Shown: positions 9,121 to 38,252 of the stretch, in pieces | Numbering within the stretch: the stretch's first letter is position 1 | Layout of the letters: the number at the start of each line of letters is the position of its first letter | Source of the DNA: Chloranthus sessilifolius | Lineage: Eukaryota > Streptophyta > Magnoliopsida > Chloranthales > Chloranthaceae | Assembly: GCA_021018995.1 (NCBI GenBank) | Contig: CM037587.1 | Coordinates: forward strand, 89,897,251-89,961,250 | Length of the DNA: 64,000 bases | Direction: 5' to 3' | Made by a program: the position numbers and the translations under genes | The notes under the pieces: generated by a model | What the model saw: the letters and a program-made list of their open reading frames with translations, nothing else | What the model was told of the DNA's origin: nothing | The model's database searches: none

Positions 9121-9544
9121 TCGATTAATCGAAATTGAGATTTGATTAATCAATTTTGGTCTTGAAGTTGAAAAATCAGGGACGCTCAATTTCAATTAAT
9201 TGATCTGGATTTCGATTAATCGATTTTGAAGGTCGATTAATCGATTTGGAAATCGACTAATCGACTGGGTACCTCCAGTGGCTGTAGAAATAAGACTTGG
9301 GGAAATCGACTAATCGACTTGGAAAATCGATTAATCGATTTTGGATTTCGATCAATCGAATTGGGATCGACTAGTCAATTTCAGATTTTCGACTGCTCGA
9401 TTTGAGAATCGATTTAACCATTTAGGGAATTCGAGTAATCAATTTGGGATCGATTAATCGATTTTGGATTTTGATTAATCGATTTTGGGAATCGATTAAT
9501 CAATTTCGGGTTCGATTAATCAATTTTGGGAATCGATTAATCAA
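9121..9544. repeat. Helically spaced TCGATTAATCGA palindrome array (LTR)
   Basis: Eighteen perfect or near copies of the 12-bp palindrome TCGATTAATCGA. Hand-read starts are 9121, 9142, 9192, 9212, 9233, 9253, 9306, 9327, 9348, 9367, 9389, 9409, 9431, 9450, 9471, 9492, 9512 and 9533. Fifteen of the 17 intervals are 19-22 bp; the other two are 50 and 53. Spacer sequence varies while spacing does not. Variants often keep symmetry (TCAATTAATTGA, TTGATTAATCAA). Confidence 0.85.
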
Positions 9545-10052
9545 TTTTGGTAGTTTCACTTGACTTACTAATTTGACCTTGAGGTTCATGGAGGGTCTAG
9601 GACCTTCTCTATTGCATATTTAGTGATGTGTTGTATGTATTATGATGTACCATAGGTGGTACTTGTGGAAGCGAGCAAAAGGAGCCGCATGGGACCTTGG
9701 TGCTTGGACCTTCGGAGACCTGAGGTAGGGAACACCTTGAACATGTACTTTAATTGCAAGAGCATGTATGTAGTGATATAGAGATCAATTTGAAAATGCT
9801 TTAACTGTGAAAATCTTGGTAAAAATGGGTATGTGTGTGTGTGACACCAAGAAAGCGATAAAGGCATCAGTGTGATGCAAATAACTGAGACCAAGTAAGT
9901 TAATGAAAATGAGGTATCCCCAGGGGATGAGAAAGTGATAAAGGCATAAAGATGATGCGAGTAATTTGGACATCCCAGGGATGTAAATAAGATTGAATAA
10001 CTACTGTTAAGGCCTAACTGATATACGATAGCACATTTACACGGTGAACAAC

Positions 10053-10064
10053 TATATATAAAGC
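10053..10064 (+). promoter_or_regulatory. Candidate LTR TATA box
   Basis: TATATATAAAGC within the 5' LTR, about 500 bp downstream of the palindrome array and 1 kb upstream of the PBS. A weaker candidate, GGATATAAGAG, lies at about 8755 before the array. The true start site cannot be decided from sequence. Confidence 0.45.
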
Positions 10065-11079
10065 ACATGTTATTTTTGCTATTTGAGGTTTGATTAGGAT
10101 ACCCCACCGACGTGGCGGGATACCCACAACAGATTCGACAGGATATCTGTGACCGGTACGGCGGCCAATCCGTACACCTGTGCGGAGGTCTATCCGTACA
10201 CAGTAAGCACATCCCAGGGATGTTGAGACAAGATTTAACCCCACCGCCTATTGAGAAAGGGGCTTGGGTCGTATTCCCAGATAATACTTTTTAACAACTG
10301 TCTATTTAGACGACAATGGAGGGTATCTCATCGGGGCTCGATGCTATATTGCTCGGGGATTACTTAAGTTGAAGATTTAAGTTTTGCTTTAGGCCTGTTC
10401 AGTGTTATTCATGATAAATCAACAGTAAAGTAAAACATGCAAACTACCAGTAAACTTGAATGCAAATTGCCATCTTTTACAACTATTTTCTAGCAAATGC
10501 ATAGACTTATCATGCTTTGAATATCATGGAATATATGTGAGATTTTGACTTATATGTTCATTGTGTTGAGCTAGAATGTAGCTCACCCTTTAGACTATAC
10601 ATCGCAGGTCCATTATTAGTAGCAGCTGAGGCTTCGGGATACGTTGATCCGGGTGATTCAGATTACGTGCCTGGGGATGAATTGGAGCCTCCTCCCTAGG
10701 ACTTCTTCTAGGAGACTCTGCTGTGTACTTTGATAGAGAGTCAGTTTAGAGAGCAAATTGTACGGCTTGGTATGTCAAGCCTTTATTTTTGTTAAACAAT
10801 GTAATTAGATAGATATAATTCTTTTGGGCGAACTATTTAGGGTGATCTGTTTATCACCGATGGTTCGGATCGGTTCTCTGTTATGCAGTGGCATGAAAGT
10901 ACAACTGTCTTTTATATGTACCAGATGGGCATATTGACTTTTTCGCTTTATGCAATTATTTGCTTTATTTATTTATTATTGCTTGTTATACCAATGTTCC
11001 GTACATATCCATGGGGCACGGTCTAGAGGATCGTGCTGATGGCACGGGTTTCGGGGTGCCAAAATCTAGGCTGTCACAG

Positions 11080-11181: not shown

Positions 11182-12465
11182 ATGTTTCCTAGAGGAAGAG
11201 GTCGACCCAGGGGCGATCATCATAGAAATTTGCGTAGTCGAGATGATCTCATCTCAGATACCAATCGAGTACCATTGGAACATGGAGGTGCTTCAGGTAG
11301 TGGCAGTCAAGAGGGCCACGATCAAGGAGAGAACCAGGATCGAGATCGTCAGGATCGAGATTAAAGGGAACAAGAAAGAGTCAGAGAAAGAAACGAGGAT
11401 AGAGAGGAGCGTCAGAGGATGATGCACACTATGGAGACCATGGCGGCTGCTATGGCCCAACAGGCAGCATCCTTGGCAGCTCATACCACTCATGAGCAGC
11501 ATCAGCCACCGACACCTCTAGTGGCTCCAACACCGCCAGTGTCTTCTATTTTTACTAAGTTTAGGAGGATGAGACCTCCTAGCTTTTCAGGGCAGGCAGA
11601 GACCATGGCAGCTGAGAACTAGCTGAGTGAAATAGAGAAGGTGTTTAGTGTGCTCACATGTACGAAGGACGAGAGCGTCCGTTGGGCAGCCTATATGTTG
11701 GATGGAGAGGCTGGGCCTTGGTGGAAGTCCGTTTCACGGACTAGGGCTCAGGAGACTCCAAATTTTCCCTAGACTTGGGATGAATTTGTGGAAGAATTCA
11801 ATAAGCAGAACTTCCCGAAAGTGGTGAGGAACTAAATGGAGATTCAATTTCTACAGCTTACTGAAGGGAAGATGACTGTTAGGGAGTATGGAGTAGAGTT
11901 CATGCGACTCGCTCGCTTCCCGCCTGACTACGTCATCACGGAGATGATGAGAGCAAAGAGGTTTCAGCAAGGATTGAGACCGGACGTGAGGGGAGGAGTA
12001 GCACCATTCCAGCTGAGGACCTATGGAGAGGTCATGAGCAAGGCCTTGGTGGTAGAGGAAGAAAATAATTACAAATACCGCCAGAGGGAGCATCAAGGAA
12101 GGTGGAATGTGGACCAAACTAGAAAGGGGAACTATGAGCCGGTGAATAAAAAGTCGAGATTCGTAGCAGGCAATCAGAAACCACCGTTCCAGGGAGGTTA
12201 TGGGAGACTGGTGCAGCAGACCAACCAACAGAAATTTCCATTGCTTGCGTCGAGGAGACCGATGAGATATGAGAGTCCTGCTATTACTATCAGAGCTACA
12301 GTTACACAGGGGTTCTCGCGAGCAGCTTCTTCCACACCTCGTGAGACTTGTGCCAAGTGTGGCAAGTCTCATAGAACAACTAATTATAGGCAGGGAACTC
12401 AAGGTTATTTTCGATGTGGCAAGGTGGGCCACCTGATCAAAGATTGCCCCGAGATGAACAAATGA
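11182..12465 (+). pseudogene. Chromovirus gag
   Basis: Capsid/nucleocapsid polyprotein. One frame runs from ATG 11182 to the stop at 12463-12465 (about 427 codons). An RG-rich start and an acidic linker lead to the gag core (FRRMRPPSFSG, then EAGPWWKS and MTVREYGVEFMRLARFPPDY) and a zinc knuckle (CAKCGKSHRT, then RCGKVGHLIKDC). Four in-frame stops (11362, 11620, 11770, 11833) each differ from CAA, CAG or TGG by one transition; no frameshift is needed. The first cysteine of the second CCHC motif is replaced by tyrosine, again a G-to-A type change. Confidence 0.85.
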
Positions 12466-12581
12466 AAGACAGCTTCAGCTCCTATTCCACGACCGATACA
12501 AGCAAGGAAGCCGATCGTCCAAGGGAGAGCCTACGCAGTCACAACTCAAGAGGCTCAGAATACAAATGATGTGATCCAAGG

Positions 12582-15055
12582 TGAGATTTCTTTTAGGATT
12601 CAGTAGGAACACTATGAATTCCTAGTGATGTCGTTTGGGTTGACAAATGTCTCGGCGTCATTCATGGATCTGATGAATAGGGTGTTTAAACCACACCTAG
12701 ACTCTTGTGTCATAGTATTTGTTGACGACATCCTGATCTATTCAAAATCAGAGGAAGAGCATGAGAAGCACTTAGAATAGCCCTACAGACTCTACGTGAA
12801 CACCAATTGTATGCCAAGCCCAGCAAGTGCTAGTTTTAGTTAGAGGAGGTTAGCATTTTAGGACACGTTGTCTCAAAGCATGGTGTCACGGTAGATCCAG
12901 TAAAGATAGAAGAAGTGGTAAATTGGGAGCAACCAAAGACCATGACCGATGTCCGTAGTATCCTTGGATTAGCGGGTTACTATCGACTTTTCATTGAGGG
13001 TTTTTCAAAGATATCAGGACCACTCACGAGACTCACACGGAAAGACGGAAGGTTCGAATGGAGTGAGGCATGCGAGAAGAGTTTTCAAGAACTCAAGAAG
13101 AGACTCACTTCAGCTCCAGTATTAGGGATTCCTTCAGGCAGTGGAGGGTTCGCAGTATACAGTGATGCTTCTTATAGTGGTTTGGGTTGCGTGCTTAATC
13201 AACACAGAAAGGTGATAGCGTATGGATCGAGACAGTTAAAAGAGCATGAGAAGAATTATCCGACACATGACCTGAAATTAGCAGCAATCATTTTTACACT
13301 GAAGATTTGGTGACATTACTTGTACGGTGAGACTTTTGAGATTTTCACCGATCATAAAAGCCTTAGATATCTATTTACACAGAAAGATCTGAACATGAGG
13401 CAGCGCAAATGGATGGAGTTTCTTAAAGACTATGACTATTCCATACAATACCATCCAGGCAAGGCTAATGTAGTGGCCAATGCCTTAAGTCGGAAGGGTT
13501 CAGCTCAGTTGGCTATTTTGATTTTGGGTATGTACCGATGGAAGCTATTTGAAGATCTGGCACTATATGATGCGAACATCGAGTCGCAAGCTACAGGAGC
13601 CTTCTTGGCTAATATATCAGTGAGACCGGTGATATTTGAGCATATCCACAAACAACAGATGAAAGACTCGACGCTAACCAAGATTCATCAAGATGTTACT
13701 GATGGCATTGGATCTAAGTTCTCGGTCGAGGAGGATGGTTCCTTATTATTCAAGGGTCGTCTCTGCATTCCAGATAATGCCGATCTATGGCGAACGATTA
13801 TTGATGAATCTCACAAGTCCAACTATGCGATTCACCCGGGTAGCACAAAGATGTACCAAGACTTGAAAACGACTTACCGGTGGAGAGGTTTGAAGCAAGA
13901 TGTGGCAGAGTACGTGTCGCGGTGTTTGACGTGCCAACAAGTGAAGATCGATCATAGACACCCCGCGAGATTATTGTAGCCTCTACCTATACCGGAATGG
14001 AAGTGGGAATCGATTTCTATGAATTTCATTGTTGGGCTACCGCGTACTGCAAAGAAGTACAATGCCATTTGGATAGTGGTCGATCAATTGACCAAGTCAG
14101 CGTATTTCTTGCCTTACAACACGATGTACATGGCGGGAAGACTGGCAGAGCTGTATATAAAAGAGATTGTCCGTTTGCATGGGATTCTGAGTAGCATTGT
14201 TTCAGATCGTGACCCATTATATACATCAAAGTTTTGGAAGAAATTTCAAGAAGGAATGGGAGCGCGACTAGATTTCAGTACGGCATTCCATCCGCAAACT
14301 GACAGGCAGACGGAGAGGGTCAATCATTGAGGACATGCTTAGGGCATGTATGTTAGAATTGCAAGGATCGTGGGATCAACACCTACAGTTGATTAAGTTT
14401 ACATACAATGAAAGTTTTCAGACGAGCATTGGGATGGCACCATATGAAGCTCTTTATGGACGACGATGTAGGTCGCCGATCAATTGAGAGGAAACCGGTG
14501 AAAATTTTGTTTTGAAAAATACTTGAAGATAATGCCACCTATGTTCATATGATAAGGGCAAAACTCAAACCGGCTCAGAGCAGACAAAAAAGCTACGTTG
14601 ATATCAAGCGAACGAGTGTAGACTTTAATGTGGGTGAACATGTGTTCATGAAAGTGTCACCTATGAAGGGCGTGATGAGATTTGGAAAGAGAGGGAAGTT
14701 GAGTCCCCGCTATCTTGGACCATTTGAGGTTCTAGGTCGAGTAGGGGAAGTTGCTTACTGCATTGGATTGCCACCGTTATTTGATCAGGTACACAATGTG
14801 TTCCACGTATCTATGCTCAGAAAGTATCTTAATGACCCTGATCACGTGTTAAGCAGCAAATCATTTGAGATGCATGAGGATATGAGCATGATCGAAGAAC
14901 CGACAGAAATTTTGGATCGAAAGGAACAAGAGTTGCGGACAAAAGTGATTCCATTAGTGCTTGTTCGATGGAAGTATCATCCGACCGAAGAAGCTACATG
15001 GGAACCAGAGGCCGACATGAAAGAACAGTATCTGAACTTGTTTGCGATAGCTTGA
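12582..15055 (+). pseudogene. Chromovirus pol (RT 3' half, RNase H, integrase, chromodomain)
   Basis: After gag the protease and the first half of RT are missing; a junction near 12582 joins gag tail to an RT segment. [12 protein letters not shown] and the catalytic FVDD ([12 protein letters not shown]) are present, then [15 protein letters not shown]. RNase H follows ([10 protein letters not shown], then [11 protein letters not shown]), then the integrase zinc finger (H-H-C-C, 13825-13950) and the DDE core (NFIVGLPRT, SDRDPLYTSKFW). The C-terminal chromodomain reads VLVRWKYHPTEEATWEPE. Stops at 13311 and 13977 are CGA- or CAG-type transitions. Small frameshifts lie near 12780 and 14325. Confidence 0.9.
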
Positions 15056-15325: not shown

Positions 15326-15812
15326 TCGATTAATCGATTTTCAAATCGATTAATCGATTTGAAAACTTGATTAATCGAATTTGGTCGATTAGTCGACTGG
15401 CATACGTCAGTGAGTGGAGATTGAATGGGGATTCAGAAAATTAACAAAGTGAAATTTCGATTAATCGATTCGGGTTTTGATTAATCGATTTTGGATTTTG
15501 ATTAATCGACATGGAAATTCGATTAATCAAGTAGCTTGAGAATTTTATAAAAATTTAAAGGACTTTACGATTTCGATTAATCGAAGTGAAATTCGATTAA
15601 TCGATTCTGGAAAATTGATTAATCGATTTGGTAAATCAATTAATCGACTGACACACGCCAGTGAGCTCGAAAAGTTGAAATTTTAAGTGACCACGATTTC
15701 GATTAATCGAAATGGCTTCGATTAATCGATTTTGAGTTTTGATTAACCGATTTTGCACAGCTTGGTTAAATTTTAAAACTCGATTAATCGATTTTAGAAA
15801 TCGATTAATCGA
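15326..15812. repeat. TCGATTAATCGA array upstream of the 3' ORF
   Basis: Seventeen copies of the same palindrome as in the LTR, in groups of two to four. Hand-read starts are 15326, 15346, 15367, 15385; 15457, 15477, 15498, 15519; 15573, 15593, 15615, 15636; 15699, 15718, 15739; 15780, 15801. Within groups the spacing is 18-22 bp. Groups are separated by related text such as CGACTGGCATACGTCAGTGAG and CGACTGACACACGCCAGTGAG. The array lies between the pol stop and a TATA box. Confidence 0.85.
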
Positions 15813-15821
15813 ATCAGGGCC

Positions 15822-15833
15822 TATATATATAAA
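15822..15833 (+). promoter_or_regulatory. Candidate internal promoter for the 3' ORF
   Basis: TATATATATAAA, ten bases after the last palindrome, is followed by a pyrimidine-rich leader (TTTCGTCTTTCTCTTCGAC) and then ATG 16041. This arrangement looks like a self-contained promoter and would let the 3' ORF be made from a subgenomic transcript. Confidence 0.5.
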
Positions 15834-16040
15834 TCGAGGGGGATTTCTCCCCATTTGAAAAATTTTGGTCTTTTCGTCTTTCTCTTCGACTGACTGTGCA
15901 CCTAGAGCTTCTTGGAGTTTTGAATCAATTTCGGATCGAAATCGTTTGTGTTCGGGTCGAATACCTAAGGTAAAACCCTAGATTTCGACTTTCTTTCCAT
16001 TTCGAGCTATAAAACTAGTTTTTGTTCTATTTTCACCAAA

Positions 16041-17550
16041 ATGTCGCCTAAAACCCGGTTATCTTCAAAGAAGGCGACATCCAAGCTCCCGGTCCGGTGT
16101 AATAACGCCGCACCGCCACCGCCTACCCCATCACCTGTGAGGACCCCATCCCCGTCGGCATCGGATACCACATTCGATTCGATGAGAGCGTCTTCGCGCG
16201 AGTCTTCACCAATTCCACCACCACCCAAAAACGTACCCCAACCAAATGAATGGTGGGCGGCTAAGACCTTCGAAGATGAATTTATCTTCGATGTGGAATT
16301 GTTTACCAACCCTGATGTTGAGGGTGAGACCCAATGGGCTCGAAATTACTTGTGAAGGCGGGCCTCAGCAATCTCTTAAAGCCACTCCACGAGTCTTACT
16401 ACCCTAGATTGGTCCACTTATTTTACCAAGGCTTGGCTGAGGGTCCTACCGACGACATTGTTATGACCACGATTGATGGTCGTGACTATACCTTCACCCG
16501 TCGCCACATCCACGAAGCCCTAGAATGTTATTTGGACTTCGTGCCTGAGACCACCCTCTTCCCACCATTTGCGGAGGAGGTGAGATTTGAAGAAATTATG
16601 ACTCTGATGACCAATGGGAAGAAGGGATCCAGATCGTCCATTCGGAGGGTCGATATGCCCCATTATATGTGGATGCTTGATTCCATAATCAAGTGTAATC
16701 TCTACCCGATGCGTCACGATACCGAGAGGGTGGAGTTAGTCCAACAGGCCTTGTACGCGGCCTTCTGTGGCCGTTGGTTTGACGCTACCAAGATAATCCT
16801 GGAGGGGATGGTCTATATAAAAGGGAAATTGATGAAGGGCAATTTGAAGCCCAAGGAGAAGATGCCATATGCTCGACTCATTTCGAACATGCTGGAGTGC
16901 TACTCAGACGCTCCAAGATATGTCGTCTCGCCCCATGAGGAGCGAGCTATGGACCACCTGAAGCACTACTCCATCGCTTCATGGGTCGTAGTTATAGGTT
17001 GCTAAAAAGGACCCTACCAGCTCAGAGCCCAACACCGGCAGCAGCACCACCACCAGTAGCGCCACCACCACCCCCACCACCACATCAGGACCCACCTGTG
17101 GGGGGAGCACGCCCCATTGATCCACCAGTTGAGGGAGCACCCTCCCATACCACTACATTGCCTACGCTGCCGTCGTAGTCAGTAGCTGCCACACCTACTT
17201 CTTCATACCGCCGGTGAGCGGCTCGCCTAGTGCCTACTATTAAGGATGTGTTGGCTCAGATGGAGGCCAACAACCAGTAGATGAATCAACGGATGGACTT
17301 CTTGATGTACCACACCCTGTGGTACATCTATCCATTGGACTTTCAGCAGTATGTCACGCAGGAGGAGGAGTGTTCTGCGGGCCGGACTATTTTTCACGTG
17401 AGTACCTCTGCTACCGATGCATCTGGCTCGACGCCCCAGCAGCCAGAGCAGCCTGCTGAGACGAGTCAGCCACCGCCTGCTGAGACGAGTCAACCACCAC
17501 CAGAGCAGCGTGTCCCAGCACCAAATCAGTCGGGAGAGGGGCCAGTGTGA
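16041..17550 (+). pseudogene. Extra 3' ORF of the chromovirus
   Basis: About 500 codons lie between the chromodomain stop and the 3' LTR. A basic, Ser/Pro-rich start (MSPKTRLSSKKATSK) precedes a globular region: KAGLSNLLKPLHESYYPRLV, then RHIHEALECY, a central LYPMR/ALYAAFCGRWFDA segment, and KMPYARLISNMLE. A proline-rich tail ends in repeats of ETSQPPPA. The globular part has the same order of blocks as the Athila B 3' ORF and resembles the plant Transposase_32 (putative plant transposon protein) type. Frameshifts fall near 16345 and 16985, and stops at 17176 and 17278. Most Tekay elements end shortly after the chromodomain, so this ORF is unusual. Function unknown. Confidence 0.65.
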
Positions 17551-17804: not shown

Positions 17805-18798
17805 TGTAATATCCCGAAAATTTAAGCGTTAAACAGTGACCTCGGGATTCGTGCTCGATTGGTCATAGGTTTGACCAAGTGATGGTCAAACAATGGACTC
17901 ATGAAGTTATGTGCTAGTGTGGGATCACTGTATGCTAAGTGTAGTGTATGGTATTAAATTTGAGTCACATACGCCTATCTCTGGTGTATGCGCTTAACAC
18001 CAAAACTGGAGAGAGGATATAAGGGTTTAATAACCCTAGAATCCTTTTGTTTGGTTGTTGAAGAGGGAGTTAAGATGAGAGAGAGAGAAGGTAATTAATA
18101 CCAAGGAGTTATTGTGGTTGGATTGGAAGGAAGATTGAGCATTGATTGCTGGATTCAACGCGATTGGGATCATTGGAATAAAGCTGGAGCCCTAGCCATT
18201 CCAACCTAGATATTTGATCAATTTGAGATTGATTGAAGGTGAGTTCCTAATTGAAGTAAATGCATAGATTGTAGATGATTAAAGTTAGTCAAATGTAGCT
18301 AAATGATAGATTAAAGACTTAGAAAAAAGAAGAAAAAGAAAAAGAATGGATTTGGCAAGAACAGTCCGAAAAGGGGCTGAGTCTGGCCGAATCGATTAAT
18401 CGAAATTGAGATTAGATTAATCGATTTTGGTCTAGAAGTTGAAAAGTCAGGGATGCCCGATTTCGATTAATCGATCTGGAATTCGATTAATCGATTTTGA
18501 AGGTCGATTAATCGATTTGGAAATCGACTAATCGACTGGGTACCTCCATTGGATGTAGAATTAAGACTTGGGGAAATCGACTAATCGACTTGGCAAATTG
18601 ATTAATCGACTTGGGAAATCGATTAATCGACTTTGGATTTCGATTACTCGAATTGGGATCGACTAGTCAATTTCAGATTTTCGACTACTCGATTTGAGAA
18701 TCAATTTAACCATTCAGGGAATTCGATTAATCGATTTTGGATTTCGATTAATCGATTTTGGGAATCGATTAATTGATTTTGGCAGTTTCACTTGACTT
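17805..18798 (+). repeat. Chromovirus 3' LTR, truncated
   Basis: Matches 8532 to about 9570 of the 5' LTR, including the palindrome array (from 18392). Identity stops after CACTTGACTT, where CACTA transposase coding sequence starts at once. The missing 1.5 kb points to a deletion across the right junction. Confidence 0.9.
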
Positions 18799-21700
18799 CT
18801 TGAACAATACGTACTTGAGTTGCTCAGAATATGTCAACTCAATTATGTCTGTTAAGCGACCATAATAGGTCATCTCTCATGCCACAGGGCTTTTATCTCT
18901 TGCATTGGAATAGCTCATAGTAGTTGCAGTGACCGCAACACCACTATTTTAAGTTTTAGCACCATTTTCCTTATCAATAGTTCAAAATTTATAGCCATTA
19001 ATGGTGTAGACGGTCAATCTGTTAGCAAGGGAACGTGGTCCTTCCGCAAGGAAAGCAACTCCTTCTGCCAATGTACTATTTGAATCGCTCAACATTCGAA
19101 CCTATTTGACATTTGCAACTAGGTTAAATTACTAACCAAATTCATCAACTAAAAAGGTACCTAAAATGCAAACTCTGGTAACTTACATAATCCTTAAACC
19201 AGTCAATGAATTATTTGTGGTACATTTTCTGTCTTTCATGGGGACTTGCTTTGCGGTGCTTCAACCAAAGTATCCGGTTGTGTTGCCTACATGAATTTCA
19301 TGTCATATGAAACTCCAACACTGAATAAAATTGTTAATCACATTTAAAATTTTAGTAATTTAAAGGCTTACTCTAGATAATCTTTAACCTTCACATCGTT
19401 GAACAACACATAACGATGTGTCTGGGTCCATTCTATTTCACTAAGTTTAAATGGCACAGCACCCCTGATCTCATTTACGTCACGATTTCTTGTGAATCAG
19501 TTTAACCTTGTTTCAATGTTGTTTAAGTATCTCGAGCAGAATGTTAGACATTCTTTTGCGACATATCCTTCAGCAATAGACCCCCCAGGTTGAGCCTTAT
19601 TACGCACATATGACTTCAGCGTAAACAAGTATCTACATTGAAAAATGTTTCATTTACATGAATGAAATTATAATTAATTTCAAATCCATAAATAACTTCA
19701 GGTAAAATGGGTCATGCCTTTTGATAGGATACATCCATCGATAATGGACAGGTCCACCCAACTGTGCCTCTGATGCCAAATGTATGGGCAAGTGCACCAT
19801 AACGTAAAAAAAAGTAGGTGGAAAAATTCGCTCTAATTGACAAAGCACCACTGTAATGCGATTCTCAAGATGTCTCAAATCCTCAATCCGGCAAACTTTC
19901 GAACATAACTCACGAAAGAAGTTGCTCAATTCTATTAATGGATAAGCTATGCTCTTGGGTAATATTTTTTGAATAGCCAATGGCATGAATTGTTGGATTA
20001 AGTCATGTGAATCATGACTTTTAAGGCCATATATCTTGCGCTCTTTAATATTAATGCACCTTGCAATATTTGACGAGTAACCTTTCGGAATCTTCAAACT
20101 CTTCAACACTTTGCAGAGCATCTCTTTCTCTCCTTTGTCCATAGTGTAGCATGCAGATGGTAGATAAGCTTTACTTCCACCGTTCTGCCATTGTCGGTGT
20201 AGCTCATGTCTCACCTCCAAGTGGACCAAGTCAAGGCGCGCCTTCAAATTATCCTTTGTTTTACCTTCAATATTCAACAAAGTTCCTAACACACTATCAC
20301 ACACATTTTTCTCAATGTGCCTTACATCTAAATTGTGTCTGAGTAAATTGTATTTCTAATATGGCAATTCAAAGAATATGCTCTTCTTCTTCCAGTTATA
20401 TGGCATGCTAACCTCATCCATAATTTTTGATTTTTTCTTAGCAGATTGTTTTCCAAATACATGTGCACTATGTTGTAATTGATTCATCACATCTGATCCA
20501 GATAGAGGAGTTGGAGCTGTTTTGAACTCACACGTACCATCAAAAGAATGCTTATATCTTCGGAACCTATGATTCGATGGTAAGAATTGACGATGACCCA
20601 TATAACATTGCTTTCTCCCATGGATCAAGTATCTGCTACATGTGTCCTTATTGCATGAAGGACATGCCAACTTCCCTTTCGTGCTCCAACCCGACAACAT
20701 AGCATACCCTGGAAAGTCACTAATTGTCCAAAGCAAGGTGGCACGTAATTGAAATACCTCATTCTTTGACGCATCATATGTCTCTACTCCAAATTCTCAT
20801 AATTCTTTGAGTTCTTCAATCAGAGGCCTCAAGTAAACATCAATGTTATTTCCAGGGCCAGATGGACCCGGTATAAGCAATGACAGTATTATGTTTGGCT
20901 TCTTCATACATAGCCATGGTGGCAAGTTGTAAGGAATTAATGTCACAGGCTATGTACTGTGTGCGATGCTCATTGTGCCAAAAGGATTGAAGCCATCTCT
21001 TGCTAACCCAAGTCTAATGTTGTGAGAATCAGATGCGAAGGTTGGATTGATGATGTCAAAATGCTTTCATGCTTGAGAATCAGCAGGATGTCTTAAAAGC
21101 TCATCTCTAGTGTGACATTCGGCCTGCCATCTCATGTCAGATCCAATTTTTGACGACATATACAACCTTTGTAATCGTGGTTTCAAAGGGAAGTGACGCA
21201 AAATCTTTGCCAGTCTATTCTTTCTATCGCCTTCAAAATGATCATCATGAGCCTTCCATCGTGAAGTACCACAAACATCACATGATTGTTTGTCAGCGGA
21301 CTCTTTCCAATATAGCATGCAATCATTTAGGCATGCGTCAATTTTATTGTAATCAAGTCCTATATCAGAAATAATTTTTTTTGTTTGCCAAAAAGAACTA
21401 GGCAATGTTGAACCCTCAGGGAGTACCTCTCTTAACAAATCAAGCAACATTGTAAATGATTTGTTACTCCATCGACTAATGCATTTAATATGTCATAACC
21501 TAACAATGAACGATAACTTTGTATGTGATTTACACCCTGAGAATAAATCTTGTTCGGCATCTTGCACTAACTTGTGGTATTTAATAGCATCTGCATTAGG
21601 TAGATCATTGGTTATCTGTGTCATACCATCCGAACCTCCTTTTGGATTTTGGATCCCAAACGCATCACACAACAAAGCACTCATGTCGTCACCCATCTCC

Positions 21701-22131
21701 TGCTCATCCGATCTACTATCAACCAAATCATTCCTCATTGAGCTTGTCTGAGATATGTCTTCCCTATGAAAAAACCATTTGGTGTAATTTTGAACAAACC
21801 CGTTGTATACTATTTGATCGTATGTCGTTTCTCTATCTTGATATAGTCTGTTGTTGCATCTAACACATGGACACTTCAACTTCCCATTTACAGTTGCTCC
21901 TCGAGCTATTGCAAGCTCGATGAATCCTTTCGCACCTTGAAGATACTCTGGAGAAATTCTATTCCATCCAGATTCAAAAATAGCATTCTTATTTAAACAA
22001 CATACCAACATTCGAGTTACTCAAAACATGTGAACATAAAGGAATATAAAATACCTAGGCTTCTGAATCCAACTTTTATCCATCATGTGGGAGACTAGAT
22101 ATACAATCTCCAACTTCTTGGTTGTTAATCT
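18799..22131 (-). pseudogene. CACTA TNP2-like transposase
   Basis: Catalyses excision and insertion of CACTA elements. The coding exon begins at 22131 after acceptor ATTTCTAG; ATG is at 22086 or 22083 (MDKSWIQKP). A 96-nt intron (22054-21959) follows, then the transposase-associated domain (ISPEYLQGAKGFIELA, then CPCVRCNNR). The TNP2 core follows (EVLPEGSTLPSSF, then LGLARDGFNPFGT and GYAMLSGWSTKGKLACPSC). Next come a DUF4218-like part (LPKSIAYPLIELSNFFREL) and the end of DUF4216 (YYGRLTDIIELTYSEQ). One frame is kept from 21958 to 19718, with stops at about 21493, 21067, 20953, 20805 and 20356, all one transition from CAG, CGA or TGG. The 85-nt intron 19717-19633 has a GC donor. The C-terminus is cut by the chromovirus at 18799. 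Confidence 0.9.
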
Positions 22132-25325: not shown

Positions 25326-25383
<58 letters not shown>

Positions 25384-28720: not shown

Positions 28721-28725
28721 AAAGG

Positions 28726-30365
28726 TGATGAGTAGTGAAATATGATGATATTTCACCCCTAAAATACCTACATTTGGCTATCCGATGAAGACTATCTGAT
28801 GAGAATTATTAGATTTGAAGTGTTTCAGGTAAATACAACCGAAGTGCAGAAAACAGCCCAAGAATTCTGAAAATAATGTCAAAACACTGCAACTTTGGGT
28901 CATCGAGAACTTGGTGCAACTTGTAGCTCCATTTAGACCTTCAAGATTACCGAATTATGAAATTGTCAAAACACAAAAGTTGTAGAGCATTCTGTCAGCT
29001 TTCCAACAGCGCACGAATCGCCTCAATCCCAGTTCGAGGCAGAAAGGTATGGCTAAAATACCAAAGCAGTATTTGATGTAAAAAGTAGGCTGGAATTCAC
29101 GGATTTCTGGGAGCTCGATGCATCGACCCTTTTGGTCGATTAATCGAGGACAAAAAAGTGTCAGACACAGAACTGACACTTTAAAGCTGATTTTTAGGAA
29201 CTTTTGCAGGCTCGATGCATCGACCCTTTTTGGTTGATTAATCGAGCCACAAAAAGTGTCCGACACGGAACTGACACTTTAAAGCAGATTTTTAGGGATT
29301 TTTACAAGGTCGATGCATCGACCCTATAGGGTCGATTAATCGATCCTGAATTTTCGCGCTGGGACACTTCCGCGACGTGAGTATTATTTAAAGCCAAACC
29401 AAACACTTCAAGGGGACAGTTTTTTTTTAGAGAATTTTTGAAGATTATTATTCATTATTATTATTTTTTGTTTTAGACTCCTCTGGGCATCTTTTCAAGG
29501 GTTCTTCTTTTCTCCTTCTTCTAGGGATTGATCTGGATAGATTGATCTTTCTTTTACATTCATAGATTGTATTTAGGAAAAGGCATTGTAACCAAAGATT
29601 TTTTGGAAGAAATGAAAAGTGGAATGGCTTTGAATGAACAAGGTGATCATACACCAAAAATGAGCGGCTAAATCAGTTGAACGGGGAAGATGCGATCCCC
29701 AGATAAGTACCCATATTTATGATTAATACCATAGTCTATTATGTCATCATGGAATCGTTTTGCTCAAAGTTTGTGTTATTGAAAATATATTGAATGCTTG
29801 TTATGACCGTTGATTGCGCGTATCAACGGCTATAAGTGCCAGATCTAGACCTGCAGACTGATCCAGACTGCAGAGCGATTATGTGTTTACTGTTGTGATC
29901 TAAACATCATGAGATACGCTATGCTTCTTATATGACTCATACCGCAATGATAGGCTGAGTCATTATTTTTAGATAGGGAATGCCGTATTGATGATCATAT
30001 TTTATTACAAATCATCTCTATAGCTCAATGATGGTGTGAATGCTGCTTTAATGAAACTGTGGGTTTTAATGATTGAAAAGGGGCACAAATCTGGGGTAGC
30101 ATATTCTTTGATCATATTTAAATATTGTTCTTAGATTCATCAGTAATTAGTTGTTTAGATTAATTAATTTATTTTTCTTGCATTTAGGAAAAGTGTGATA
30201 AATTTTTCGTAAATTGAATCTGCCATTTGGTACTCCTTGGGGACGTTTTTAAATCTCTAAAAGAATTAATTAAAATTTACGTTTCCCTGTGGGTTCGACA
30301 CCCTTGTTCTTGCCATACTATAATATATCTTGTGCACTTGCAAGGGTTACATTTAAAATCGTCCA
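28726..30365 (+). repeat. Athila A 5' LTR
   Basis: Starts TGATGAGTAG and ends TCGTCCA just before the PBS. The 3' copy is almost the same but lacks about 48 bp in the third palindrome unit, explaining most of the length difference (1640 versus 1587). Confidence 0.9.
29115..29343. repeat. Paired palindromes TCGATGCATCGA + TCGATTAATCGA (LTR)
   Basis: Three units, each with TCGATGCATCGA then TCGATTAATCGA. Starts are 29115/29136, 29212/29234 and 29310/29332, so partners are 21-22 bp apart and units 97-98 bp apart. Between units lies GTGTCAGACACAGAACTGAC, itself partly symmetric. TATTTAAAG at 29385 may be the TATA box. The second palindrome equals the chromovirus 12-mer. Confidence 0.85.
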
Positions 30366-30369
30366 AGTT

Positions 30370-30388
30370 TTTGGTGCCGTTGCCGGGG
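30370..30388 (+). other. Athila primer-binding site
   Basis: TTGGTGCCGTTGCCGGGGA follows the LTR by about five bases. It matches the tRNA-Asp-type PBS (TGGCGCCGTTGCCGGGGA) of Athila with one transition. Confidence 0.85.
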
Positions 30389-30931
30389 AGATCGGCGAAA
30401 TTTTGATTAATTCGGATAGAGATTTGTGTGTTTTGCATTTAAAATAATAATAATAAAAAAATATATATAAAAAAATAAAAAAATAAAAAATAATAATAAT
30501 AATAAAATAAAATTTTGAAATTCTTTCCCTTATTTTTCTCACTCTTAGGTAAGTTTTTTTTTTAGGAGTCTTTTAGGAATTTTAAATTTTTAGGCTTCTT
30601 ATTTTAGTTTTGTTTTTTTTTTTTAGGAGTCTTTTTAGGAAGTATAGATTTTTAGGATACCTTCCTTAGGAAATTTAGGAATCTTTTAATATTTCCCTTA
30701 TTTTTCTCTTTTAGATAAGAATTTGTAGGATTGCCATTAGGTTTATAATTTGAATTTTTAATTTTAATTTTTGAAATTCAGATTTAAAAAAAAAAAAAAA
30801 TAATAATAATAATTAAAATTTAATTTAAATTCGAATTTTAATTTTAATTTTTTAAAATAATAATAATAATAATAATAATAAATTTAAATTTTTTTTTTTT
30901 TTTCTGATTTTGGCTACTATTTATCATAACC

Positions 30932-31208
30932 TCAATCGATTGAGCATTCTCTGTCAATCGATTGAGACTGGGATATATTTTTTGTTGAATTTTTGGGTTT
31001 CTTTCAATCGATTGACACTTTTCTGTCAATCGATTGACAAAAATTCTGAGCTTGCCATTTTGGCTGAAATTCCTGTGTTGACTTGCTTTGACTTTTGAAC
31101 CTCAATCAATTGAGAACAGTTCTTCAATCGATTGACTGATAAAGTCATTTGTTTGAACTTTGTGTGAGCCTGTGTCAATCGATTGAGACACTTCTTTCAA
31201 TCGATTGA
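30932..31208. repeat. Four palindrome pairs TCAATCGATTGA in the gag leader
   Basis: Eight copies, of which one is degenerate (TCAATCAATTGA). Starts are 30932/30954, 31004/31026, 31102/31124 and 31175/31197. Every pair has exactly 22 bp between starts, although the 10-bp spacers differ (GCATTCTCTG, CACTTTTCTG, GAACAGTTCT, GACACTTCTT). The array sits between AT-rich leader DNA and the gag start at 31266. Confidence 0.9.
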
Positions 31209-31265
31209 AGCTGAATTTTGTGGGTTTGTTGTGGGTTCTTCAATCCTTGTTTGTGAGAGTGGTGT

Positions 31266-34200
31266 ATGAGCTTTACTCGTTCTCATCACCCACATCTGCT
31301 ACCGTTTAATCTTGAGATCGAACGATCTTGTAGAGAGAATCGTAAAATTCAAAGGAATCAGTATCATCATACTGATATCATGGCTGATCAAAGGTAAGAA
31401 ATGAATGGGAACAACTAGAATGTCAATAATGGAAATAATGGAAATAATGGGAATAATAATTACAATGAGGGCCCTAGAACACTCGAATATTATAATGATC
31501 CTGGTTTTTACGAGGATCAGGATAGTATCATGCATGATCCCATTCCAGGGAACCACTATGAATTCAAATCAACAATGATTCAAATGCTACCAATTTTCCA
31601 TGGATTAGCAAATGAAAATCCTCACGTTCATCTAAATGAATTCACTGGGGTATGCAAAATGTTCAGAGTCCACAATGTCACTGATGAGATAGCTAAGCTA
31701 CGACTATTTCCTTTCTCTTTAAGAGATAAGGCAAAAACATGGTTCTATTCCTTAGAACCACAATCGATTCAAAGTTGGGCAGAGCTACACCGTCAGTTTC
31801 TTAAAAAATATTTTCCCATGACCAAAACCATTAAGTTGCGTCAGAAGATCCAGTTCTTTTCCCAACAACCCACAGAAACATTTCATGAATGTTGGGAATG
31901 CTTTAAGGAATTGATTAAGAGTTGTCCAAATCATCAAGTTCCAAGGTGGCAACAAGTCCAAAGTTTTTACAATGGACTGATTTCAGAAGAGAGGTGCATG
32001 GTTGATGCATCTTGCGGAGGATCGTGTGCCACGAAAGAGGCTGATGAGCTGTGGGCATTGTTTGAGAAGTTATATCAAACTTCAATCCAAAATGCGACAA
32101 TGGAGCGAACTAATTTGGATGTGGCAATAAAATCACATGTGTTGACCAGAAATGGATTATTTGATGTCAAGAATAACACTTCAGATCTGTCAAGAAAGGT
32201 TGATATGCTATCCAAGCAAATGAACATATTATTAGCTGCAACTAAGCAAGCTAAGAGTCCCATCAATCCCGCTGTGTGTTCAATTTGTGACCACCCACGT
32301 CACATGGCTAACGAGTGCCCTACCACCTTGTCATTTCTTCCTGATGAACCTACTCCTCAAGAGCAGGTGAATCTAACTCAATTCTATCAGTGACAAGGTA
32401 GGAATATGTACTCAAACACATACAATCTGAAATGGAAAATTCGCCCCAACTTAGGATGGGGAGGATCAAACCAAATTGGACAGGTGAATCAGCTGTTCAG
32501 ATCTAATCCAATGAGTGGACAACAAAATTTTCAACAAAATTTTCAGCAGAATATTCGTCCACAACAGAATCCTAATTTCCAACAGAATTCTAATTTCTAG
32601 CAGAATGCTCCATATTATCATCCAAATACTGAATACCGAAAAAATCAGAATTTCAATCAGAATCTTAATCAATCTCATACTAGCACTTTGAAAGATTCTG
32701 ATCTGGAAGAAAAGGTGATGCGAAGCATGCAATCTTTTCAGCAGATGATAATGGACCAAGTCAGTCAATTGGCCAATCAATTGAGTCAACGAGAGGAAGG
32801 TAGGCTTCCCAGCCAACCCGTCAACAATCCTCTAGGTCAAGCACCACCTGATGAAGGACCATCGAATAGTCAACAGTTGAAAGCTATTTCGGTGCTGAGA
32901 AGTGGGCGAGAAGTTGATAATCAAGTGGAAATGCCTGTGGAAGTTGATGCAGAAAGAGAAGCAGCGAAAGAGAAAGAATCAGAGATAAGAAAAGATAAAG
33001 GAAAAGGAAAAGAGAACAAAAAAGAGAAAGAGAAAGGGCAAGGAAGAGAGAAGGGAAAAGAAAAAGAAATAGAGGAAGTGTCACTTCCAACTGTCCAACA
33101 AGGACGTGAAAAAGAATCGGAACTTGAATCTGCACCTTATGTCCCAAAGGCACCATTCCCTCAATGCCTAACTCTTCCATCTAGAATGGGAAAGGGACCG
33201 GCAAAAATGGAAGAAAATTTTGAAACATTCAAGCAAGTAAAGATAAATCTTCCATTACTTGAGACAATTAAACAAGTTCCTGAGTATGTCAAGTTTTTCA
33301 AAGATTTGTGCACTCGTAAGAGAAAGGCACGTAATCATGTTTCAAAGAAAGTGTTCCTGACTAATCAAGTCAGTTCGATGTTGCAATTGGAAACCCCACA
33401 GAAACTGAAAGACCTTGGAGTCCCAACTATTCCATGTGTCATTGGTGGGCAGCCAATTGGAAAAGCGTTATTGGATTTGGGAGCAAGTGTTAATCTAATC
33501 CCATACTCAATGTACGAGAAACTCGGATTAGGTGAATTGAAACCCACGACGGTCACACTCCAACTGGTAGATAGATCAGAAAGAAGACCTAGGGGTATTA
33601 TCGAGGATGTTTTGGTTGGAATAGACAAGTTTATATTTCCAGTGGACTTTGTCATTTTAGATATGGAACCACCTGTTAAATCAATTAATCAAGTCCCCAT
33701 CATTCTTGGACGTCCGTTTCTCGCCACTGCCAACGCTTGCATTAATTGTCGAACAGGAGTCATGGACGTTTCTTTTGGAAACATGAAGGTCAGATTGAAT
33801 ATATTTCATGCGATGAACCATTTCCCTAACGAGGATGAGGTTGAATGTTTTTACATCGATCAGATGGACGAAGTGGTGGATGAAGCATTACCATCAATGC
33901 TCACCAAAGAAGAATTTGAAACTGCTTTGTTGGCCATCTATGAAGAAAAATGATCTGAAAGGAAGCAGTCAGAAGAGACGAGGTCGAGTTTATCACGTCC
34001 AGATGATAACTTATGTGAAAATGTGACTAAGGTAGAATCATTACCTATTGAGGTAAAGGATGTGCTGACTCCATCAATTGAGCAGCCACCAACTGTCGAA
34101 TTAAAACAGTTACCTGAGTCGCTCAAGTATGCTTTTCTGGGGCCACGAGAAACGTTTCTGATGATAATTTCATCTACATTGTCAAAAGAACAAGAGCATG

Positions 34201-35405
34201 ACCTGTTGAAAGTACCTAAAGAGCACAAGGAGGCCATCGGATGGACTTTAGCTGATTTAAAAGGGATTGACCCATCAGTATGTATGCATAAAATATATCT
34301 GGAAGATGAGAGTAGACCATCGAGGGAACCGCAAAGGCGACTTAATCCGAACATGCAAGAAGTCATTTTAAAGGAAGTCATTAAACTTCTCGATGCTGGA
34401 ATCATCTATCCGATCTCTGATAGTGAATGGGTAAGTCCAGTCCAAATCGTTCCGAAAAAGTTCGGAATCACTGTGAAAGAAACTACTGAAGGAGAATTGG
34501 TCCCTACTCGCAAAACTACTGGGTGGCGTGTCTGCATTGATTATAGAAAATTGAACACAGCTACCAGAAAGGATCATTTTCCCCTTCCGTTCATTGATCA
34601 AATTCTTGAGAAGTTAGCAGGAAAGGAGTTTTATTGCTTTCTTGATGGTTATTCGGGATACAATCAAGTGCCCATTTTTCCACCTGATCAAGAGAAAATG
34701 ACATTCACGTGTCCTTATGGTACTTTTGCATATCGAAGGATGCCGTTTGGCTTATGTAATGCACCTGCTACTTTCCAACAATGTATGTTGGCCATATCTT
34801 CGGATATGATTGACAAATTCATCGAGGTGTTCATGGACGATTTCTCTGTTTGTGGGAAAACATTTGGTTCATGTTTGAACCACCTTGCCAAAGTATTACA
34901 ACGTTGTGTAGATTTTAAACTTGTTCTTAGCTGGGAGAAGAGTCATTTTATGGTTCAACAAGGAATTGTGCTCGGGCATATTGTTTCCAAGAAAGGAATT
35001 GAAGTTGATAGGGCCAAAGTCGACTTAATTGCCAATTTTCCACCACCAAAGAGTGTTCGTCAAATTCGATCATTTTTGGGTCATGCTGGATTTTATAGAA
35101 GATTCATTAAGGATTTTAGCAAGGTGGCTAAACCATTGTGTACCTTGCTTGGCAAAGATGTTCCTTTTGACTTCAATGATAAATGCATGAAAGTATTTCT
35201 GAAATTGCGCGAGCTCTTATCAAATGCGCCAATAATCCAACCACCGGATTATTCTTTACCATTTGAACTCATGATTTTGCATAATCTCATACATTTTATT
35301 TTGACTTGTGACTTTGCATTATATCAAATTCATATTATTGTGTTAGAACGTACTGTATATCTACTCAAGACAAATAGGCAAGGTTACCATCTTTTAAGAA
35401 AATGA
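31266..35405 (+). pseudogene. Athila A gag-protease-RT
   Basis: One frame starts at ATG 31266 (MSFTRSHHPHLLPFNLEIER). An Asn-rich segment precedes the gag core (WFYSLEPQSIQSWAEL), the zinc knuckle CSICDHPRHMANEC and a lysine/glutamate-rich linker. The protease (LLDLGASVNLIPYSMY, LGRPFLATA) and RT (FLDGYSGYNQVP, FGLCNAPATFQQ, VFMDDFSV) follow, with catalytic residues kept. Stops at 31395, 31416, 32391, 32598 and 33951 are all one transition from CAA, CAG or CGA. After the RNase H entry (PPDYSLPFELM, about 35268) the text becomes unrelated: RNase H and integrase are deleted. Annotated ORF pieces: 31530-32393, 32688-33953, 34023-35405. Confidence 0.9.
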
Positions 35406-36665
35406 TTGAAAGCCATCTTTGGCTCATTTGTGCTTAAATGCCCCACCTCATATAAATTTATCCTTCTAGTACCCCTTTGAGCCTATTAAAATTTTTTTTA
35501 CCTTTATACATTCTTTGATAAGCCACGTTAACCTTTAACCCTTTACAATTTATGATAATTCAGCTTTACCCTTCTTATTTCTGAGAAATTAGGAACGAGG
35601 GATGAAAATGAACGAAAAGAGAGTAAGTGGAGAGATACTGAGTTGTGGTGTTTACTGAGAGTGTATGGTAAAAATATAAAAGAAAAAGGGGGGAGAAAAA
35701 GAAAAAGAAAATTGTAAAAAATAATAAAAAATATGAGGTGCTTCACGAAAAGAAAATTCAAAAGAAAAAGAAAGTTGAGAAAAATAGAAAAATATTGAGA
35801 AAAATAGTGAGAGATTAGAAAAGAAAAAGAAGAGAAATAGAAAAATCAGAAGTTTGTTTCTTTTCCGATTTCTCAGAAATTTTGAATCTCAATTCCCTTT
35901 CTTTCTTACCCTTTCCTGAGCCCCATTACAACCCTACAAATGACCTTCATGATCTGATCTTGCATTGGTAACTGCCTTGTGGAGAGTAAATATGTGATAC
36001 TTATGACACTTGATATGAGATGCTTAGGATATACAAGTATCTGTTCTTATGAGATTTGATTTTGTTCATTGATTACATCGTGTTTCATTTATCATGTGAG
36101 ACCTTTTTGCTTGTTTTGTATTGATCTCTCACATATGTGCGAAAGCTTACCCATCATCGGAGTGATTTTATTTCGAGAGTATACCTAAAGTGAGGATTGA
36201 GTCGAGACAACAGATTCGACGGTTTTCCGTTTGGACTAGTTCCGAGATGGATGAATCTTGGTTTGGGTATGCACACACTTCACGTTTAAGCATGAATGGA
36301 TGAGTTGTCTAACAATTTGAGCATTAGATTAATTTGAATGGATACTAGCATGATTGATATGACATTAATATTTAAGATTGATGATTCACATGTTGAAACA
36401 ATTAATGTTTTTGTTTTTGAATAATATATATGTTATAAAAAATCATGTTTTGAAAACTCAATTTTGTCGATGGTTTGAAATTTTTGGAAGTTTGTGGGTA
36501 ACTTCACTGTAAACCCTCAGGAGACACAACTCCTCCACTAGGGATCACCTAGGAGTTTAAAGGCTTGTTGCACATGCTAAGTGCAATCGTGTTTCCTACG
36601 AAAGTGGCATTTATTTTCTTTAGCTTGCTTTGCTCGAGGACTAGCAAAGTGTAGGTTTGGGGGTG
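35406..36665 (+). other. Athila A 3' UTR and polypurine tract
   Basis: No ORF. It contains a block conserved in all three Athila copies of the window: GTAACTTCACTGTAAACCCTC, then CTCCACTAGGGATCACCTAGG, then TTTAAAGGCTTG (36495-36565; compare 57090-57180 and 63915-64000). It ends with GTAGGTTTGGGGGTG, the polypurine tract. Confidence 0.75.
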
Positions 36666-38252
36666 TGATGAGTACTGAAATATGATGATATTTCACCCCT
36701 AAAATACCTACATTTGGCTATCCAATGAAGACTATCTGATGAGAATTATTAGATTTGAAGTGTTTCAGGTAAATACAAGCCAAGTGCAGAAAACAGCCCA
36801 AGAATTCTGAAAATAACAAAACACTGCAACTTTGGGTCATCAAGAACTTGGTGCAACTTGCAGCTCAATGTGGACCTTCAAGACAGCCGAATTATGAAAT
36901 TATCAAAACACAAAAGTTGTAGAGCTTTCCGTCAGCTTTCCAACGGCGTAAGAATTACCTCAATCTGAGTTCGGGACAGAATGTTATGACCACAATACCG
37001 AAATAGTGTCTGATGCAAAAAGTAGGCTGGAATTCACGGATTTCTGGGAGCTCGATGCATCGACCCTTTTGGTCGATTAATCGAGGACAAAAAAGTGTCA
37101 GACACAGAACTGACACTTTAAAGCTGATTTTTAGGAACTTTTACAGGCTCAATGCATCGACCCTTTTTGGTCGATTAATTGAGCCACAAAAAGTGTCAGA
37201 CACGGAACTGACAATTTAGGGTCGATTAATCGACCCTGAATTTTCGCGCTGGGACACTTTCGCGACGTGAGTATTATTTAAAGCCAAATCAAACACTTCT
37301 AGAGGACAGTTTTTTTTTAGAGAATTTTTGAGGATTATTATTCATTATTATTATTTTTGGTTTTAGACTCCTCTGGGCATCTTTTCAAGGGTTCTTCTTT
37401 TCTCCTTCTTCTAGGGATTGATCGGGGTAGATTGTACTTAGGATTTACACTGTCTTTCTTTTACATTCATAGATTGTATTTAGGAAAAGGCATTGTAATC
37501 AAAGATTTTTTGGAAGAAATGAAAAGTGGAATGACTTTGAATGAACAAGGAGATCATACACCAAAGATGAGCGGCTAAATCAGTTGATCGGGGAAGATGC
37601 GATCCCCAGATAAGTACCCATATTTATGATTAATACCATAGTCTATTATGTCATCATGGAATCGTTTTGCTCAAAGTTTGTGTTATTGAAAATATATTGA
37701 ATGCTTGTTATGACAGTTGATTGCGCGTATCAACGGCTATAATCGCTAGATCTGGACCAGACCGATCTGAAATTATGAAGCGATTATGAACATCATGAGA
37801 TACGCTATGCTTCTTATATGACTCATACCGCAATGATAGGCTGAGTCATTATTTTTAGATAGGGTATGCCGGATTGATGATCATATTTTATTACGAATCA
37901 TCTCTATAGCTGAATGATGGTGTGAATGATGCTTTAATAAAACTACGGGTTTTAATGGTAGAAAAGGGGTACAAATCTGGGGTAGCATATTCCTTGATCA
38001 TATTTAAATATTGTTCTTAGATTCATCAGTAATTAGTTGTTTAGATTAATTAATTTATTTTTCTTGCATTTAGGAAAAGTGTGATAAATTTTTGGTAAAT
38101 TGAATCTGCCCTTTGGTACTTCCTTGGGGACGTTTTTAAATCTCTAAAAGAATTAATTAAAATTCACATTTCCCTGTGGGTTCGACACCCTTGTTCTTGC
38201 CATACTGTAATAGATCTTGTGCACTTGCAAGGGTTACATTTAAAATCGACTA
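36666..38252 (+). repeat. Athila A 3' LTR
   Basis: Starts TGATGAGTAC after the polypurine tract and ends TCGACTA before the AAAGG duplication. The palindrome array (37052-37233) keeps two full units plus the last TCGATTAATCGA. Confidence 0.9.

Follow-up and report, generated by a model that had tools for sequence, protein, structure and literature searches.

Palindromic sites spaced about two helical turns apart in several retrotransposon families of Chloranthus sessilifolius

Two retrotransposons with dyad arrays

The window analysed here, a stretch of 64,000 nucleotides from the 2.17-Gb, 32-contig genome of Chloranthus sessilifolius (contig CM037587.1, positions 89,897,251 to 89,961,250), contains two long terminal repeat (LTR) retrotransposons, a Ty3 chromovirus and an element labelled Athila A, both of which carry arrays of a 12-bp palindrome, TCGATTAATCGA, or of its relatives, commonly spaced at about two helical turns. 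We call these palindromes dyads, and refer to further sampled loci as L001-L047. An earlier interpretation of the same DNA (the sequence-only reading) had described the palindrome in both elements, and its copies are present where it had placed them, with 25 exact copies of TCGATTAATCGA and four of TCGATGCATCGA in the window. Several retrotransposon families carry palindromes spaced in this way, and the pattern is wider than that reading described.

The first element qualifies as a chromovirus by a chromodomain after the integrase (PF00385; E 7.7e-07, 29.4 bits against a cut-off of 25.1), and its Pfam matches follow the Ty3 order of RNase H, integrase and chromodomain. The region previously taken for its 5' LTR does hold an array, but is only part of a much longer repeat (Table 1). 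Together, its three arrays contain 21 exact TCGATTAATCGA sites, and the internal array precedes an additional open reading frame (the extra ORF). The name Athila A is inherited from the sequence-only reading. The element has frames for gag, protease and reverse transcriptase (RT); no integrase match was found in the three frames scanned with Pfam. Its leader array, which alone comprises eight dyads, is additional to the arrays described before, and an Rfam scan of 28500-31500 produced no match at E 0.1.

Table 1. Coordinates of the chromovirus, Athila A and their dyad arrays in the window
Feature	Positions	Strand	Basis or content
Chromovirus 5' LTR	8532..11078	+	Start from alignment to 3' LTR; end inferred from primer-site-like TGGTATCAAAGC at 11081
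Chromovirus 5' LTR dyad array	9121..9544	+	15 sites at up to two mismatches to TCGATTAATCGA; 11 of 14 intervals 19-21 bp
gag, RNase H, integrase H2C2, SH3_Tf2-1 and chromodomain matches	11836..15052	+	Pfam, separate frames; Ty3 chromovirus
Internal dyad array, between chromodomain and extra ORF	15326..15812	+	Nine exact sites; outside LTR
TATA-like TATATATATAAAT	15822..15834	+	9 bp downstream of internal array; similar layout in L031 and L047
Extra ORF	15969..17002	+	Two overlapping frames in window copy; PF20167 match below cut-off
Chromovirus 3' LTR, truncated	17805..18801	+	LTR alignment; match stops at about 18801
Chromovirus 3' LTR dyad array	18392..18776	+	Seven exact sites
Athila A 5' LTR	28725..30361	+	LTR alignment
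Athila A 5' LTR dyads	29115..29343	+	Three pairs of TCGATGCATCGA with TCGATTAATCGA, 21-22 bp apart; one copy reads TTGATTAATCGA
TATA-like TTATTTAAAG	29384..29393	+	40 bp past last LTR dyad
Athila A leader array, in LTR-to-gag gap	30932..31208	+	Four pairs of TCAATCGATTGA-class dyads, 22 bp within pair; four different spacers
Athila A gag, protease and RT frames	31419..35402	+	Pfam
Athila A 3' LTR	36665..38248	+	LTR alignment
Athila A 3' LTR dyads	37052..37233	+	Two pairs (21 and 22 bp) and one single dyad; site search

Site counts and spacing

The dyad is abundant and its spacing recurrent. Exact TCGATTAATCGA occurs 241,617 times in the genome, compared with 55 occurrences of the reversed string, and the 430-bp array of the chromovirus 5' LTR has 15 sites at up to two mismatches where 500 first-order resamplings gave a mean of 0.42 and a maximum of three. 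The proportion of intervals at 19-22 bp in this array depends on the threshold: the 15 of 17 originally reported are recovered at three mismatches, but the figures are 1 of 4 for exact sites, 8 of 11 at one mismatch, 11 of 14 at two and 13 of 21 at four. The distances of 21-22 bp claimed between Athila A partners are reproduced in both LTRs (21, 22 and 22 bp in the 5' copy, 21 and 22 bp in the 3' copy). More widely, 132 of 189 first-neighbour intervals over 14 chromovirus arrays fall within 19-22 bp, as do 37 of 71 over 17 non-chromovirus arrays that we chose from the sampled loci. Three dyad classes, with arms TCGAT, TCAAT and TCGCT, have this spacing of approximately 19-22 bp in common.

A spacing peak at 20-22 bp, which the sequence-only reading had expected of the genome, is present in the first 2.4 Mb of contig 1 and in 25 sampled pieces (20 of 10 kb from the first 80 Mb of contigs C1-C10, and the first five of 40 drawn pieces of 6 kb), and is lacking in shuffles. 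The first 100 sites listed for contig 1 give 86 intervals of at most 130 bp; 37 of these are 19-22 bp, and additional peaks lie near 41, 63, 84 and 105 bp. When one mismatch was allowed in the arms, the 25 pieces had 131 sites, whereas two shuffles had 24 and 36; of the 83 intervals in the pieces that do not exceed 130 bp, 41 are 19-22 bp, distributed over 12 pieces, against 0 of 1 in each shuffle. A control motif, complemented but not reversed, occurred twice in these pieces, with no pair within 60 bp. For perfect 12-bp palindromes of any sequence, the first 20 pieces have 81 pairs at distances of 12-130 bp, 14 of them 19-22 bp apart; ten shuffles yielded 0-4 pairs altogether.

The mean resultant length at a period of 10.5 bp is 0.62 for chromovirus arrays (0.47 at 21 bp) and 0.32 for the others. 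Longer intervals in the non-chromovirus arrays are unphased, which indicates that the phased unit is the pair or run and not the whole array; the helical phasing proposed earlier therefore stands within pairs and runs, but not between pairs, where intervals of 35, 59 and 76 bp occur. Strict phasing across entire arrays was considered and is not seen in the non-chromovirus arrays.

Conservation of dyads between elements

The 12 chromovirus LTR arrays that we aligned represent eight elements, provided that the window's two, L030/L031, L001/L029 and L032/L033 are four LTR pairs of single elements, as their positions and 96-98% flank identity suggest. Four sequences served in turn as the reference on which sites were defined, each being excluded from the comparison that it defined; the resulting comparisons share ancestry and are not independent. 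Within an element, dyads are 95-98% identical, all spacers 93-95% and flanks 97-98%. Within an element group, dyads remain at 92-94% with spacers at 77-78% and flanks at 76-77%; between the two groups the dyads are still 92-94% identical, with spacers at 61-64% and flanks at 67%, a dyad-spacer gap of 0.26-0.31. CpG is retained in 83-88% of comparisons inside dyads against 52-61% outside. The Athila LTRs (six copies, four elements) behave similarly between elements, with 95-96% identity in dyad arms, 94-95% in their centres, 67-74% in spacers, 68-71% in the sequence between pairs and 79-81% in flanks. The dyad excess is present between elements and hardly at all within them, which means that the dyads are held during replication and decay like their surroundings once inserted.

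Since an aligner may place dyad on dyad in tandem arrays, synthetic neutral arrays were taken through identical alignment and counting steps. Random spacers gave mean identities of 0.60 for dyads, 0.56 for spacers and 0.58 for flanks, and a tandem spacer gave 0.61, 0.57 and 0.59; over 24 runs the dyad-spacer gap peaked at 0.105. The indel rate of these arrays was of our choosing, and their divergence was a little above that of the natural arrays (flank identity 0.58-0.59 against 0.67). Spacing is similarly stable. For dyad pairs 18-23 bp apart, exact spacing is kept in 628 of 775 comparisons between chromovirus elements (both directions counted); 31 comparisons differ by 1 bp, none by 2-10 bp, 10 by -12 bp and 106 by at least 15 bp, of which 60 are changes of 20-22 bp and 14 of 40-42 bp. 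Conserved 12-mers 21 bp apart in the flanks changed by 1 bp in 322 of 2736 comparisons and by 2-10 bp in 114, and in the synthetic arrays such 2-10 bp changes made up 85 of 720 comparisons in one set and 121 of 715 in the other (206 of 1435 combined). The suggestion that dyads and spacing outlast spacers across copies is thus upheld by both alignments and the synthetic control; equal decay is not seen.

Arrays beside TATA-like boxes

Seven of eight Athila-type LTR copies have an array that ends at most 42 bp before a TATA-like box: the match lies 38-42 bp past the last dyad in six copies from four elements, and 2 bp past it in L013. In the chromoviruses, it is the internal array that has this arrangement. 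The layout of array, TATA-like box and extra ORF is identical in L031, of the same family as the window copy, and recurs in L047, a chromovirus that is only distantly related (its chromodomain is 59% and its extra ORF 43% identical) and whose array occupies the same position with a different dyad, TCGATCGATCGA. An array therefore precedes the extra ORF in three chromovirus copies from two families, with a TATA-like match 8-9 bp past the last dyad in each (8 bp in L047). This suggests that the internal array and its own TATA-like box may constitute a second promoter for the extra ORF, carrying its own copy of the module. An inverted repeat, CTGR-N6-YCAG, was seen by eye at about 9265-9278, 15398-15411 and 15648-15661 and is common to the LTR and internal arrays, hinting that one was copied from the other, although the score with dyads masked is no higher than the shuffle maximum, both being 23.

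The class of dyad varies between related places (LTRs of the window, L013 and L021; leaders of the window, L021 and L043), while the arms stay mostly symmetric. At like places in the LTR, L013 has TCAATCGATTGA and L021 has TCGATCGATCGA beside the asymmetric TCAATTGATCGA, and the leaders of L021 and L043 carry TCGATnnATCGA dyads. The assignment of L013 depends on flank matches that are short (43-161 bp), and for the L021 leader the sole criterion was how far it lies from the LTR.

In the nine frames scanned with Pfam at E 0.1, no domain besides PF20167 was matched, and all PF20167 matches are below the family cut-off. For the extra ORF itself, none of 112 candidates in the protein collection was a homologue at E 0.001, no PDB sequence matched at E 1, and the fold prediction (mean pLDDT 47) was unusable. 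Three further places have PF20167-like ORFs: L017, which is Athila-type, L028, and position 51246 of the window. Different motifs lie upstream at L017 and 51246, and L028 has no dyad of the three classes. Upstream of the window ORF (51246-52589), TCRCGAG repeats at 50573-50803 form pairs 19 bp apart with a period of about 85 bp. On the reverse strand of L017 (5095-5349), CGATAGG/CCTATCG half-sites in inverted or direct orientation, at intervals that include 11, 16 and 21 bp, are followed by a TATA-like box, upstream of the PF20167-like frames.

Other features of the window are recorded here for completeness. Inverted repeats of GTGTCAG or GTGTCCG with CTGACAC lie between Athila dyad pairs at about 29156-29185 and 29257-29285. 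Transposase_21, DUF4218 and Transpos_assoc matches on the minus strand at 19657-22020, a region that we take to be of CACTA type, adjoin the truncated chromovirus 3' LTR, and a 24-bp tandem repeat that includes GGGCCATGGGCCC occupies 47075-47372.

Comparison of arrays between lineages

Once the dyads are masked, comparing the LTR array of the chromovirus with that of Athila A gives scores of 16 and 18 on the two strands, against a maximum of 24 in 100 shuffles. As a positive control, the internal arrays of the window and L031 still match (59 against a shuffle maximum of 26). Over all 66 pairs compared, three exceed their 100 shuffles; two are positive or plausible controls (the internal array with L031, and the L021 leader with L036), and the third, the chromovirus LTR with the L021 LTR, is probably due to chance. 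The test has low power, since it missed the relationship of the Athila A and L021 LTRs, which is evident from their flanks. A recent single exchange between the chromovirus and Athila A finds no support in this comparison, within the limits of its low power.

A conserved Athila LTR stretch of about 130-175 bp lies beside the array at 28925-29100 in the window, and recurs at L010:1447-1585 and 8349-8487, L019:4216-4346 and L046:3201-3355. About 140 bp of it is found inverted beside both L010 arrays, which flank chromovirus RT and chromodomain matches, showing that LTR modules do move; it is inverted in L046 too.

Interpretation and alternatives

Our essential contention, which on balance we consider probable from the sequence comparisons, is that the dyad arrays are binding sites for a dimeric host protein acting in pairs, and are cis-regulatory boxes maintained by selection that acts on the elements as they replicate. 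A homodimeric DNA-binding protein would occupy each 12-bp dyad, which has arms TCGAT, TCAAT or TCGCT around two looser central bases; with a second dyad about 21 bp away, two dimers would come to lie on the same face of the helix, where they may bind cooperatively, and the pair or run would be the working unit. The arrays would activate the adjoining promoter, if the TATA-like boxes are such: that of the LTR in Athila, and in chromoviruses the internal promoter before the extra ORF and presumably the LTR promoter as well. Families would switch between related dyads, and unrelated lineages would share sites through reliance on the same host protein or its close relatives, a common factor that the sequence-only reading had also contemplated and that we infer from the sharing. 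The masked comparison, within its little power, favours independent gain of the same site in both lineages, for which a common reader could be the explanation.

Several observations weigh against this proposal. None of 12 chromovirus LTR arrays has a TATA-like match within 260 bp downstream (one array is truncated there), and in six of them the match lies at 262-533 bp; in the L021 LTR the nearest is no closer than 546 bp, and the first dyad of that array is the asymmetric one. L041, a related chromovirus with an extra ORF (75% identity), has no dyads upstream of it, apparently because the stretch with array and chromodomain has been deleted (the integrase match ends 771 bases into the piece and the ORF match starts at 1129); L042 and L044 also lack dyads. 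Helical phase is not kept from one pair to the next. Leader arrays are probably part of the transcript, a position in which it is hard to see them serving a promoter, and in the L009 and L036 arrays CA and TG centres complement each other between neighbouring sites in the manner of a hairpin.

This last feature bears on an RNA-level role, an alternative that we regard as improbable. Two copies of a palindrome are also an inverted repeat, and so a pair could fold into a hairpin whose stem would measure about 12 bp and whose loop about 7-10 nt, serving small RNAs, RNA dimerisation or packaging. This potential follows directly from the sequence of equal pairs, and would suit the presumed transcription of leader arrays, the CA/TG centres and partly symmetric spacers seen in some arrays, and the small RNAs that map to palindrome clusters in maize Sireviruses, as described in the available parts of PMC5311732 and PMC10760457. 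However, in pairs with GC/TA and CG/TA centres each site is symmetric by itself but the two are not symmetric to each other, loops of other lengths should presumably be acceptable to a hairpin, and some arrays stop just short of TATA-like boxes. A neutral minisatellite, by which a 20-21 bp unit would have been amplified by slippage with the palindrome included by chance, is in our view extremely unlikely, even though the intervals in chromovirus arrays peak in comb-like fashion at multiples of about 20.8 bp and 74 of 106 spacing increases of at least 15 bp are of 20-22 or 40-42 bp. Palindrome and spacer should then diverge equally, which between elements they do not; the simulated neutral tandem array fails to reproduce their gap, and other families combine the same spacing with unrelated spacers. 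We reject it on the conservation of dyads over spacers in both chromovirus and Athila, the stability of spacing and the synthetic control.

The regulator might instead be encoded by the elements, as in the VANC/VANDAL system, with the extra ORF and its PF20167 match as candidate; it would bind family-specific motifs to activate or un-silence its own family, and Athila would share or hijack the chromovirus sites. The position of the ORF behind an array in two chromovirus families, the PF20167-like ORFs at three further places, and the variation of array motifs by family, as described for VANC targets in the available text of PMC5735166, speak for this idea. We nonetheless think it unlikely, given an ORF with no usable fold, PDB match or Pfam domain besides the sub-threshold PF20167, and given PF20167-like ORFs with other motifs upstream (L017 and 51246), or without these dyad classes (L028), and an extra ORF with no dyads upstream (L041). 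As regards the sharing of arrays, recombinational exchange of an LTR cassette in place of independent gain has a precedent in the inverted Athila stretch beside both L010 arrays, but the masked scores for chromovirus and Athila A stay below the shuffle maximum, the window chromovirus lacks the stretch, and L046 has the stretch with no dyad within its 6 kb; we hold exchange to be very doubtful.

A host dimer reading paired dyads could have wider implications. Conceivably, though we offer this as speculation, one promoter grammar extends across plant retrotransposon lineages, perhaps across both superfamilies, in which paired CG-bearing dyads two helical turns apart mark LTR, leader and extra-ORF promoters and dyad identity switches as elements and a dimeric reader, of the host or element-borne, co-evolve. 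If so, elements would compete for, or share, one regulator. The dyads provide a short probe with which to look for a host protein that may be needed by many retrotransposons of this genome. Comparing copies between elements with the two LTRs of one element allows selection on an LTR regulatory site to be told apart, from sequence, from the drift of a tandem repeat.

Comparison with known systems

Two known systems invite comparison. VANC proteins of VANDAL elements are sequence-specific anti-silencing factors whose targets carry the motif YAGTATTAY, varying by family (PMC5735166, as far as its available text describes). Like those targets, the dyads are a short motif repeated in non-coding parts of elements and differing by family; unlike them, they belong to retrotransposons and not DNA transposons, the repeated motif is TCGATTAATCGA and its relatives in place of YAGTATTAY, and the string 'palindrom' is absent from the main text of PMC5735166. 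In maize Sireviruses, small RNAs map to palindrome clusters of the LTR regulatory region (PMC5311732 and PMC10760457, in the parts available); the arrays resemble these clusters in form and place, and the link to small RNAs was drawn in maize.

The nearest parallel is with the RM boxes of Sireviruses. The sequence-only reading knew of no described element module of this type, which was mistaken: in the LTRs of Sireviruses, boxes of palindromic repeats lie upstream of the TATA box, and others lie upstream of env (PMC2829016, in the passages available). Among the matches listed in exact-string literature searches with the dyads, their core and the LTR stretch, this was the sole plant-retrotransposon paper recognised by its title, though others may exist.

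As in RM boxes, for which at least eight palindromic copies per element are expected, there are many copies (21 exact in the chromovirus, eight dyads in the Athila A leader), and their sequence differs by element. As regards the further RM boxes before env, arrays precede the extra ORF in the window, L031 and L047, though not in L041, and the likeness of this ORF to env is putative. Copies close upstream of a TATA-like box are seen in the Athila-type LTRs (seven of eight within 42 bp) and not in those of chromoviruses (none of 12 within 260 bp). Tnd-1 is an element of tobacco. Its box, ACAATCGATTGT, has the same 10-bp core as TCAATCGATTGA and lacks the CGG-CCG core that most RM boxes possess (PMC2829016, available passages). 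RM boxes are a feature of Ty1/copia elements, while here a box is shared by the Ty3 chromovirus and a second lineage taken to be of Ty3 type, and the passages available make no mention of a fixed spacing, which here is about 21 bp. The arrays are therefore not members of the Sirevirus RM-box class, because the chromovirus is a Ty3 element and the arms TCGAT, TCAAT and TCGCT do not provide the CGG-CCG core; yet they resemble them in layout, and the Sirevirus palindromic boxes, so far as the available passages of PMC2829016 describe them, are a close precedent.

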